Below, piece after piece: positions 24,084-29,481 of a stretch of 64,000 bases of DNA. Both the position numbers and the translations under genes were made by a program. The first letter of the stretch is position 1, and each line of letters begins with the position of its first letter. The notes below the pieces were generated by a model. The model did no database searches. It worked only from the letters and a program-made list of their open reading frames with translations, and was not told the origin of the DNA. Origin of the DNA: Verrucomicrobiota bacterium (GTDB taxonomy: Bacteria; Verrucomicrobiota; Verrucomicrobiia; Chthoniobacterales; Terrimicrobiaceae); contig JAPLTG010000029.1 in the NCBI GenBank assembly GCA_026398255.1, forward strand, positions 1 through 64,000. The letters are read 5' to 3'.

Positions 24084-24171
24084 TGGCGGAGAGAGTGGGA
24101 TTCGAACCCACGGGACCTTGCGGTCCTCCGGTTTTCAAGACCGGCGCATTAGACCACTCTGCCACCTCTCC
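24084..24171 (-). tRNA. tRNA-Ser (anticodon TGA)
   Basis: The minus strand folds as a class II tRNA of 88 bases: acceptor stem GGAGAGG paired with TCTCTCC, anticodon stem CCGGT/ACCGG with loop CTTGAAA (anticodon TGA), a long variable arm GGACC-GCAA-GGTCC, and a T-arm GTGGG-TTCGAAT-CCCAC. The discriminator is G and CCA is encoded. It reads UCA-type serine codons. Confidence 0.97.
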
Positions 24172-26509: not shown

Positions 26510-26633
26510 ATAACCCGCCAACTCGGCAGCCCGGAATCGCTGCAACCCAACGCGGCAAGGCATTGGAGAGCAAAACGAGAGATTGCAAGGAAGGTCGTTT
26601 TGCCCCAGTGTCCCCAACTCCACAAATCTCGGC

Positions 26634-28184
26634 ATGGACAACGATCAATCGAACCCCACCAACGAAGTAATGAACGGCGACGAAGCGGCAGCATTTCTGC
26701 AAATGCCCAAATCGACGCTCTTGAAGCTCTGCAGCGAAGGGCAATTGCCTGGATTGAAGGTGGGCCGGAATTGGAGATTCAACCGCACCGCCCTCGAAAA
26801 ATGGAAAAGCGCCAAGGCCGGTTCTGAAGTGGATTTCACTGAGGAATCCGAAGTGGTCGGGGAACCGACTCCAATGGATTTCGCCGACAACCTTACGGAA
26901 GCCGAGGCCTCGGTGGGCATACAAATCAAGGAAGTGGTCGGATCTGTGGGCGAGGATGATTTTGAAGATACGGGCGATGTAGTCGAACTCGACAACATCT
27001 CCGAGGGAGTGGGTGAGGTGCACGAAATCGAGGAACCGGCCAAAAAGTCGCCGCGCCGCGGGCGTTCGTCCTCCGCCCTCGATCTCATGGCGCAAATTTC
27101 CGACAAGTCCCCGGGCCGCCGTGGAGCCAAGACAACCCGCGCGAAAACCGCGCCGGCCATTGCCCCCCGATCCAAACCCTCTCCGGAACCCATTCCGCCC
27201 GCTCCGAAACGCGAGTCCCGCATCGATGACGGGGCCGTCGAGGTATCCCGTCCCTACAATCGCCAAGCCGCTGCGGCCCCTGTGCCAAGGACTCCCGAGC
27301 GCCGCCCCCCTGGTGGCGGAGGCGTCGGTGTTCTCAAAAAATTGGTTTATTGGGTGGTCGTTCTCGTCGTCCTCGGCCTCGCCGGCGTGGGCGTGAAGAG
27401 CATGCTGATTCCGATTTCCACCCTTCCCATTCCAACCACTCCCGATGAGGCCGCCATGGCAGAGGCAGCCGCCTTGCCGGAATTCCAAGTGGTTTACCGC
27501 CATAACGAGGAGGAATCACTCAAAGAGGACAAACTCGCAGTTCCCACCCCTCCCCCAGCCGCTCCTGCAGCAGCCGCTCCTGCAGCAGCCGCTCCTCTCA
27601 CTTCCTCGGCGCCCGTGGATACCGTGGCACTACAAGCCCCGCCGGCTCCTCAGCAAGCCCCGCAAGCTCCTTCCGCCACTCAGGAAGGCACGCAACAACC
27701 AGCCGTCCCTATCGCCACCACCCCTCCCGTCAGCCGCAGCCTCGAGGCGATCAACCGTCTCCTTCCCGCGCTCTTCAACCTTTCGGGCTCTACCGTCAAC
27801 AGCAACAACAACGAAATTCGAATCACCTTCCAAGAAGGCGTCTTCTCATCGGGCATCACGGTCAGCGATTCTGGAAAAGCCCAGCTCTCTCGTGTTGCGG
27901 AATTCCTGAAAGTCAACGCACCCGATTTCTGGGTGATCATCGAGGGCCAAACGGATAGCAAACCCGTCCGCTCGAACTCCCCATTCCGCGATAACTACAC
28001 CCTCGGCCTTCGCCGCGCCGTTGCCGCTACCGAGGTCATGCGATCCGAGGCCCAGTTCCCGAATGACCGCCTCCTCGCAAGTTCCTCAGGAGGGCTCCCC
28101 CCTCCATTCCCGGAAGACCAAGCCGGATCAGCCGCTCGCAACCGCACCGTCATTCTGCGTCTCGTTCCGAGAATTCTCGAATAA
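26634..28184 (+). CDS. HTH - transmembrane - OmpA-domain protein
   Basis: The predicted product of about 516 residues has three parts. The N-terminal 60 residues are an excisionase-type winged helix (DEAAAFLQMPKSTLLKLCSE, LKVGRNWRFNRTALEKWK) that should bind DNA or protein in the cytoplasm. A long acidic then Pro/Ala/Lys-rich linker leads to one membrane helix near residue 235 (YWVVVLVVLGLAGVGV). A further Pro/Ala-rich linker leads to an OmpA/MotB-type domain (WVIIEGQTDSKPV, YTLGLRRAVAATEVM) expected to bind peptidoglycan. I chose ATG 26634; a TTG at 26583 would add 17 residues. It lies beside ftsZ, convergent with the dcw operon. A link between DNA and cell wall is inference. Confidence 0.8.
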   Translation: MDNDQSNPTNEVMNGDEAAAFLQMPKSTLLKLCSEGQLPGLKVGRNWRFNRTALEKWKSAKAGSEVDFTEESEVVGEPTPMDFADNLTEAEASVGIQIKEVVGSVGEDDFEDTGDVVELDNISEGVGEVHEIEEPAKKSPRRGRSSSALDLMAQISDKSPGRRGAKTTRAKTAPAIAPRSKPSPEPIPPAPKRESRIDDGAVEVSRPYNRQAAAAPVPRTPERRPPGGGGVGVLKKLVYWVVVLVVLGLAGVGVKSMLIPISTLPIPTTPDEAAMAEAAALPEFQVVYRHNEEESLKEDKLAVPTPPPAAPAAAAPAAAAPLTSSAPVDTVALQAPPAPQQAPQAPSATQEGTQQPAVPIATTPPVSRSLEAINRLLPALFNLSGSTVNSNNNEIRITFQEGVFSSGITVSDSGKAQLSRVAEFLKVNAPDFWVIIEGQTDSKPVRSNSPFRDNYTLGLRRAVAATEVMRSEAQFPNDRLLASSSGGLPPPFPEDQAGSAARNRTVILRLVPRILE

Positions 28185-28251: not shown

Positions 28252-29481
28252 TTATTTTTTGATTTTGAGCCGCAGGAAGGTCGGGACATCCAAATCCTCG
28301 CCTTCGACAATCGTCGGCTCACTTCGTTCGAAGCGCCCCCGGGCAATCGGCTCGAGCGGGAGGAAATCCTGTTTCACCTTTTGAGTTTTAGTCGTCGGGC
28401 TCGCGACTTCCGGATCCTCGATCACCTTGTCCTCGACTGGGGGAGCGGGAGCCGCAGGAGGCGGCGTGGAAATCGAAGGAATGGCCACCGAGGGCGCGGG
28501 TGCGGATTTCCTTTCCTCCACTCCGGTGCGGCCAATGATCGTCACAATGAGCGGTGCAGAGTCATCCCCAGCCGTGCTAACCCCCAGGCAGAGGTTTGCC
28601 GAAGCGGAGGTGTTTTTTGAGATTTCCCTCATGACGGCGGCCACTTCGGCGAATGTCAGGGAGGCAGGACCTGAGAGATGGACCAAGATTTTCCCGGCTT
28701 CTTGAAGTAGGCGGCCGCGATCGAGCAAGGGGCTGCGAAGAGCCTGTTCCAAAGATTCGTGGGCTCGGTTTCCGCCCTCCGATTCGCCGCAACCGAAAAG
28801 GCATCCGCCCGCGCCAGCACGCAAAACAGAAAGAAGGTCGTTCACGGCAATCGGCAGCGGCCCGGGGTTGCCAAGCATTCGAACGATCCCGCCGATGGCT
28901 TGGAAAAGAAGTCCGTCACAAGCCGCGAAAGTTTCGGAAACATCCGCACGCGGCTCGACAAGTTCGGCCATGCGGTCGTTCTCAAAGTGAATCAAGGCGT
29001 CCACATGCCGCTTCAATTCCGCCAGCGATTCAGCAGCCTGTTGCGATCGGCGACGGCCTTCGAATTGGAATGGCGAAGTGACAACGCCCACCACAAGAGC
29101 GCCCTTCTCCTTGGCCATTTTGGCCAGCAACGGAGTCACCGCGCTGCCAGTGCCACCCCCAAGTCCAGCGCAAAGGATCACAACATCCGACCCCGAAACC
29201 GCCTCTTGCAATTCGCCGAGGGATTCCTTCGCCGCGTCAATCGCACGCTCCGGGTCACCTCCGGCGCCAAGGCCGTGGGTTGTCATCGGCCCGAGAACCA
29301 GTTTTTTTGAAGCCACGGATGCGGTGAGCGACTGCTGGTCGGAGTTTAATGCGATCGTGCGGATCGGGAGAGCGGCACGCATCGCGAGTCGATCGGTGAT
29401 GTTCACCCCGGCGTTTCCGATGCCGATCAAAGTGATCACGGCTTCTTTCGCGGGTTCCTCGTGGTGTGGATAGGGGCTCAT
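28252..29481 (-). CDS. ftsZ: Cell division protein FtsZ (divergent)
   Basis: FtsZ is the tubulin-like GTPase that forms the division ring. The nucleotide-binding half is recognisable: LIGIGNAGVNITDRL near residue 19, ALNSDQQSL near residue 44 and AGLGGGTGSAVTP (tubulin signature) at 105-117. The C-terminal peptide DVPTFLRLKIKK, the docking site for FtsA and others, is kept after a Pro-rich linker. The T7 catalytic loop is altered: in an ungapped alignment the E. coli N207-x-D209-x-x-D212 becomes P210, A212 and D215. GTP hydrolysis may therefore be weak or use other residues. It is the last gene of the dcw operon; its ATG overlaps the ftsA stop. Confidence 0.93.
   Translation of the reverse strand: MSPYPHHEEPAKEAVITLIGIGNAGVNITDRLAMRAALPIRTIALNSDQQSLTASVASKKLVLGPMTTHGLGAGGDPERAIDAAKESLGELQEAVSGSDVVILCAGLGGGTGSAVTPLLAKMAKEKGALVVGVVTSPFQFEGRRRSQQAAESLAELKRHVDALIHFENDRMAELVEPRADVSETFAACDGLLFQAIGGIVRMLGNPGPLPIAVNDLLSVLRAGAGGCLFGCGESEGGNRAHESLEQALRSPLLDRGRLLQEAGKILVHLSGPASLTFAEVAAVMREISKNTSASANLCLGVSTAGDDSAPLIVTIIGRTGVEERKSAPAPSVAIPSISTPPPAAPAPPVEDKVIEDPEVASPTTKTQKVKQDFLPLEPIARGRFERSEPTIVEGEDLDVPTFLRLKIKK

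Follow-up and report, generated by a model that had tools for sequence, protein, structure and literature searches.

Can a single protein connect the bacterial chromosome directly with the cell wall? This question is raised by a gene in the 64,000-bp stretch of DNA analyzed here (referred to as the window), which stems from a MAG of a freshwater genus of Spartobacteria. The gene (ORF 26634-28184, plus strand) starts with ATG and codes for 516 amino acids followed by a stop codon. The first-pass annotation had described its product as a cytoplasmic winged helix-turn-helix (wHTH), acidic and proline-rich linkers, one membrane helix (TM), and an OmpA/MotB domain, and had suggested that this protein could bring the chromosome and the wall into direct contact, possibly as a division-site factor.

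Domain architecture and predicted topology

The proposed domain order was borne out by Pfam searches, an AF2 model, and the charge pattern along the protein. The gene comprises the following features:

26634..28184, plus strand: whole gene, coding for the wHTH-TM-OmpA protein (ORF and orthologues)
26664..26819, plus strand: wHTH (HTH_17, MerR/Xis type), residues 11-62, net charge +4 (Pfam, model, charge)
26820..27053, plus strand: residues 63-140, an acidic linker in the cytoplasm (net charge -21; charge count)
27054..27323, plus strand: residues 141-230, a basic linker in the cytoplasm (net charge +11) that is rich in Pro (17%; composition)
27072..27101, plus strand: short helix SALDLMAQIS, residues 147-156, conserved within a variable linker (alignment, AF2 model)
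27234..27260, plus strand: residues 201-209, a conserved motif N-terminal of the membrane helix that reads AVEVSRPYN here and AVEISRPYN in most orthologues (alignment)
27324..27395, plus strand: single membrane helix, residues 231-254, no acidic residue (AF2 model, sequence)
27396..27731, plus strand: residues 255-366, a linker in the periplasm rich in Pro (20%) and Ala (23%), with a conserved LPEFQVVY motif (alignment, composition)
27732..28181, plus strand: OmpA/MotB-like domain, residues 367-516, with NRT replacing NRR and with the diaminopimelate-binding positions occupied by Asp441 and Arg461 (alignment, model)

The AF2 model contained a wHTH (residues 12-62), a membrane helix (231-254), and an OmpA domain (368-512; pLDDT 92-95). 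The linkers are predicted to be disordered except for two short helices, and a central coiled coil like that of RacA and RocS was not seen in the model. Since positively charged residues flank the membrane helix on its N-terminal side, the N-terminus is predicted to be located inside the cell.

Distribution and conservation in the genus

Full-length orthologues with both end domains were found in 14 of the 16 species genomes of the genus. A 15th genome contained an orthologue truncated at a contig end, and the only genome without one consists of 590 contigs and is 87% complete. No orthologue was found in 10 genomes representing four sister genera of the same family. The scan beyond the phylum covered 84,980 species and was pattern-based, requiring near-exact HTH peptides, and remote HTH-OmpA fusions could escape it. 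Six of seven orthologues tested passed the Pfam cut-offs of both HTH_17 and OmpA. Compared to the nearest sister, the gene has a dN/dS of 0.11 overall, 0.07 in the OmpA domain, and 0.17 in the HTH (based on only five changes there). The wide occurrence of full-length copies in the genus together with the low overall dN/dS indicates that the architecture is more than a product of chance. Loss of the HTH in homologues, which the first-pass annotation had regarded as speaking against its proposal, was seen in none of the genus orthologues. The picture is mixed, however, since more remote proteins homologous to the OmpA half have other cytoplasmic modules where the HTH would be.

The winged helix and the cytoplasmic linker

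HTH_17 (PF12728) matched residues 16-60 of the window protein (E 3e-11; 43.8 bits versus a cut-off of 27) and exceeded its cut-off in all seven orthologues tested. The AF2 model of the wHTH reached a pLDDT of about 90 over residues 11-60, and its best fold matches were RdfS (Z 7.6), DNA-bound BldC (Z 7.4, rmsd 2.3 over 53), Xis (Z 6.8), and the RacA-DNA complex 5i44 (Z 5.6). At these moderate Z values, the nearest solved folds were mainly DNA-bound or DNA-binding proteins, and terminase and MerR-family wHTHs were also listed. Foldseek with the same model returned no HTH match below an E of 0.001 (best E 0.009). A PDB search with the single HTH sequence gave no match, and a PDB profile search with the HTH retrieved RdfS (E 6e-4). 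Ten residues (K26, S27, T28, K31, K42, G44, R45, W47, R48, and F49) are invariant across the genus, most of them being common to the stand-alone excisionase-like proteins of the phylum as well. K26 and R48 align, according to the alignment made in the present analysis, with Lys26 and Arg48 of BldC, which contact DNA (PMC5859096). The residues and the charge of the wHTH would be compatible with DNA binding.

Further hints came from the cytoplasmic linker. In three orthologues its basic part contains altogether five copies of the AT-hook core RGRP, whereas shuffling at constant composition predicts 0.05 (0 of 5000 shuffles reached the observed count). RRPGRP cores resembling AT-hooks occur in three further orthologues, making six in all; the linker of the window copy lacks such a core. 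Because the search was made after the sequences had been seen and the orthologues are not independent of each other, the AT-hook cores are taken as support rather than proof of DNA binding. A bacterial precedent for AT-hooks is WhiB7 (PMC11354804).

The fold matches of the wHTH model also included CbpM (3ucs, Z 5.9). CbpM is a MerR-like protein that binds another protein, CbpA, and not DNA. In other Verrucomicrobiota, HTH_17 was observed at the N-terminus of an apparent acetyl-CoA synthetase (L159, L161, L166). This fusion and the CbpM match imply that a MerR-like fold could bind protein instead of DNA. Other families of the order have HTH_17 fused to an apparent receiver domain of the response-regulator type (L016-L019, L021).

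The OmpA domain and wall binding

The Pfam OmpA model had no match on the window protein and was above cut-off in six of the seven orthologues. OmpA-type models of NCBIfam matched residues 387-511 with E values of about 1e-11 to 3e-11, under the models' own cut-offs. The structural agreement was close: the domain model aligned over 148 residues with the MotB-like structure 3khn (Z 17.3, rmsd 2.7), followed by MotS (Z 16.8) and PomB (Z 16.5). In OmpA-type domains, diaminopimelate is held by a pair of Asp and Arg residues (PMC6572160). Arg461 of this pair is invariant across the genus, and Asp441 is present in the window and replaced by Ser or Asn in 4 of 15 orthologues. Judged from sequence and model, the OmpA domain is likely to bind peptidoglycan.

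MotB, PomB, MotS, and TssL resemble the window protein in that the OmpA fold they share with it stands behind a single membrane helix. In contrast to these proteins, the window protein has no acidic residue in the TM, no conserved partner gene, the NRT motif, and a large cytoplasmic head. A function as MotB-type stator was ruled out, as helix 231-254 contains no Asp or Glu for ion flow. A Zorya-like defense system was also dismissed, because the weak matches to ZorB (which is MotB-like) were confined to the OmpA part and no partner gene is conserved.

Relatives of the OmpA half elsewhere in the phylum

Profile searches of 388 genomes of the phylum, with the genus profile A1 serving to find relatives, revealed that other Verrucomicrobiota classes possess a coherent subfamily of OmpA domains. 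This TM+OmpA "NRT" subfamily is defined here by a profile match, a TM preceding the domain, and N-R-T in place of the N-R-R that MotB, Pal, and OmpA usually have. Its members have one membrane helix followed by an OmpA domain with N-R-T (in one case N-K-T). The window protein shows the motif and the TM and groups with these relatives in the tree; profile A3 includes its sequence by construction. In the OmpA-domain tree, the HTH-containing genus formed one clade (99/98) with a TPR-type member as sister, and the ParB members require one change (76% of bootstraps). The nearest OmpA relative of the genus protein (L213:1632-2751, minus strand) has an apparent frameshift upstream of the TM, where TPR-like sequence is split between two reading frames.

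The cytoplasmic modules attached to the TM+OmpA anchor are diverse and comprise ParB_N (Pfam-confirmed in 10 genomes), long coiled coils, a weak GYF_2 match, a TPR-like region, and disordered tails. Some of these genes directly follow parA, which codes for a ParA-type ATPase:

L203:5234-7422, L204:1462-3643, and L214:4671-6675 (other Verrucomicrobiota classes): parA, then directly a ParB_N-TM-OmpA gene
L211:1737-3513 (-): parA, then a TM-OmpA gene without ParB_N that has kept the N-terminus LGRGLGDLL

The pairs in L203, L204, and L214 appear to represent a second, wall-anchored ParAB-like pair beside an ordinary ParB. As an ordinary ParB was present in all 21 genomes checked, the ParB_N-TM-OmpA proteins are regarded as extra proteins. 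No parS-binding part was found in them by Pfam, and they may therefore hook ParA or ParB rather than DNA. The LGRGLGDLL N-terminus, which resembles ParB N-termini, may contact ParA. Compared with the window protein, these relatives share the OmpA subfamily and the TM plan and have a partition-type head, but they carry ParB_N instead of the wHTH and come from other Verrucomicrobiota classes.

The TM-OmpA relatives L193, L195, L196, L197, L198, and L201, which form one coherent clade, have the motif QLDLF near the N-terminus. It matches the consensus for beta-clamp binding, and this clade could join the replisome to the wall. For the genus of the window such a motif was dropped, as SALDLM and not QLDLF is found there.

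A possible tether between DNA and the cell wall

The best reading of these data, which we hold with moderate confidence, is that the product of the window gene is bitopic in the inner membrane and links DNA with the cell wall; its binding to DNA and peptidoglycan and its role in positioning are deduced from the features described above. According to this model, the N-terminal wHTH of the MerR/Xis type would bind chromosomal DNA in the cytoplasm with the aid of the basic linker, and a flexible linker of about 170 residues would span the distance from the wHTH to the membrane helix. On the other side of the membrane, the 110-residue Pro/Ala linker would allow the MotB-like OmpA domain to reach the peptidoglycan and grip it non-covalently. 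Regions of the nucleoid would thereby be held near the envelope, or their movement would be damped. RacA and RocS have a similar job, but here the fixed point would be the wall itself. A tether fits best because of the intact wHTH, the AT-hook cores in orthologues, the long linkers on both sides of the membrane, the domain of a wall-binding type, and the partition-type modules on the same anchor. Consequently, of the proposal in the first-pass annotation, the architecture, the predicted topology, and a possible link between chromosome and wall are supported by the domains, the folds, the orthologue AT-hooks, and the ParB_N relatives, whereas the division-site role is not.

RacA of Bacillus and RocS of Streptococcus combine an N-terminal MerR-type wHTH that binds DNA with attachment to the envelope (PMC11500499). 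A MerR-type wHTH is also found in the window protein, whose model aligns to that of DNA-bound RacA (5i44, Z 5.6), but RacA and RocS rely on a coiled coil and are connected to the membrane or pole by an amphipathic helix or DivIVA, whereas the window protein contains a genuine membrane-spanning helix along with an OmpA domain. In the literature collection searched, no paper on ParB-OmpA proteins, HTH-OmpA proteins, or wall-anchored chromosome tethers was found.

Another possibility, which we consider rather unlikely, is that the protein serves as a scaffold or landmark anchored in the wall, with a wHTH that recognizes a protein rather than DNA. The HTH, or the motifs SALDLMAQIS and AVEISRPYN, would then dock a partner such as ParA, ParB, a protein of cell division, or the replisome at a defined position on the wall, in the manner of FimV/HubP. 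Distant relatives have coiled coils, TPR, GYF-like regions, or ParB_N where the HTH stands, and these varied heads on the same anchor imply that the shared job need not be DNA binding. The short motifs conserved within otherwise variable linkers and the protein-binding, MerR-like CbpM among the fold matches point in the same direction. The HTH of RodZ, which binds MreB, illustrates such a function. RodZ resembles the window protein in having a cytoplasmic HTH, one TM, and an extended periplasmic part, but differs by containing HTH_25 rather than HTH_17 and by the absence of an OmpA domain. A replacement of RodZ was ruled out, since all genomes of the genus, including the source genome, encode MreB and an HTH_25 protein of their own. 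The plan of FimV/HubP is also alike, with a periplasmic peptidoglycan-binding domain, a TM, and an acidic cytoplasmic region (PMC12918733), but these proteins have LysM instead of OmpA, the reverse sequence order, and the FimV domain instead of the wHTH. Arguments against a scaffold are that the HTH has retained the usual HTH_17 residues and its basic charge, and that the AT-hook cores of six orthologues point toward DNA.

Gene neighborhood, promoter, and regulatory alternatives

The local neighbors of the gene are unrelated between species groups. Upstream of it, the following element was recognized:

26583..26611, plus strand: sigma70-like promoter, TTGCAA-17 bp-CAGTGT (upstream alignment; spacing and -10 element assigned by eye)

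An element resembling TTGCAA-17 bp-CA[GC]GAT (CAGTGT in the window) was kept before 13 copies of the gene in the genus, most of which differ in their neighbors, and was not enriched within the window. Its retention despite the changing neighbors indicates that the gene is an independent unit, and the arrangement reads as a gene that moves alone with its own predicted promoter. Elsewhere in the window, the GC content falls to 0.45-0.52 at about 14-24 kb, compared to about 0.58 in the surrounding sequence. This AT-richer stretch may be an inserted region and has a tRNA-Ser gene (TGA; 24084-24171, minus strand) beside it.

In CadC and ToxR, a wHTH is followed by a TM and a periplasmic domain, and the window protein has the same order. 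It could accordingly be pictured as a membrane-bound one-component transcription factor, with the OmpA domain sensing the state of the wall and the wHTH regulating genes. MerR-like relatives such as BldC do regulate transcription (PMC5859096). Nevertheless, this explanation seems improbable: the gene has no conserved neighbor or divergent target gene, and the wHTH belongs to HTH_17 and not to the OmpR type of CadC/ToxR, whose Trans_reg_C model had no Pfam match in the window protein. The upstream element was also set aside as an operator, since its two parts, 17 bp apart, are those of a sigma70-like promoter; this leaves room for autoregulation.

That the protein is a division-site factor acting with FtsZ, as first proposed from the convergence with ftsZ (28252-29481, minus strand) and the nearby dcw cluster, can be considered highly improbable: the convergence is real in the window, but ftsZ adjoins the gene only there and in a 95%-identical sister, and lies on a different contig or about 96 kb away in the other species in which both genes could be placed. 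Hence, the company with ftsZ and ychF is accidental, and a functional link to these genes was rejected.

Implications for chromosome organization in the Verrucomicrobiota

To our knowledge, the chromosome tethers described in bacteria so far end at the membrane or at a protein of the cell pole. If the window protein is indeed a tether, one protein reaching from DNA to peptidoglycan would provide a rigid external reference for the nucleoid. More tentatively, it might belong to a modular family of tethers that span the envelope in the Verrucomicrobiota, in which a constant wall anchor made of the TM and the OmpA domain is combined with interchangeable chromosome-handling heads (a wHTH with AT-hooks, or ParB_N with its own ParA), and by which DNA or the partition machinery would be fixed to the wall. 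The ParB_N-TM-OmpA relatives encoded beside parA suggest that this theme is wider than one genus. With a single protein of this kind, wall-anchored chromosome organization would become testable in a phylum where it has hardly been studied.
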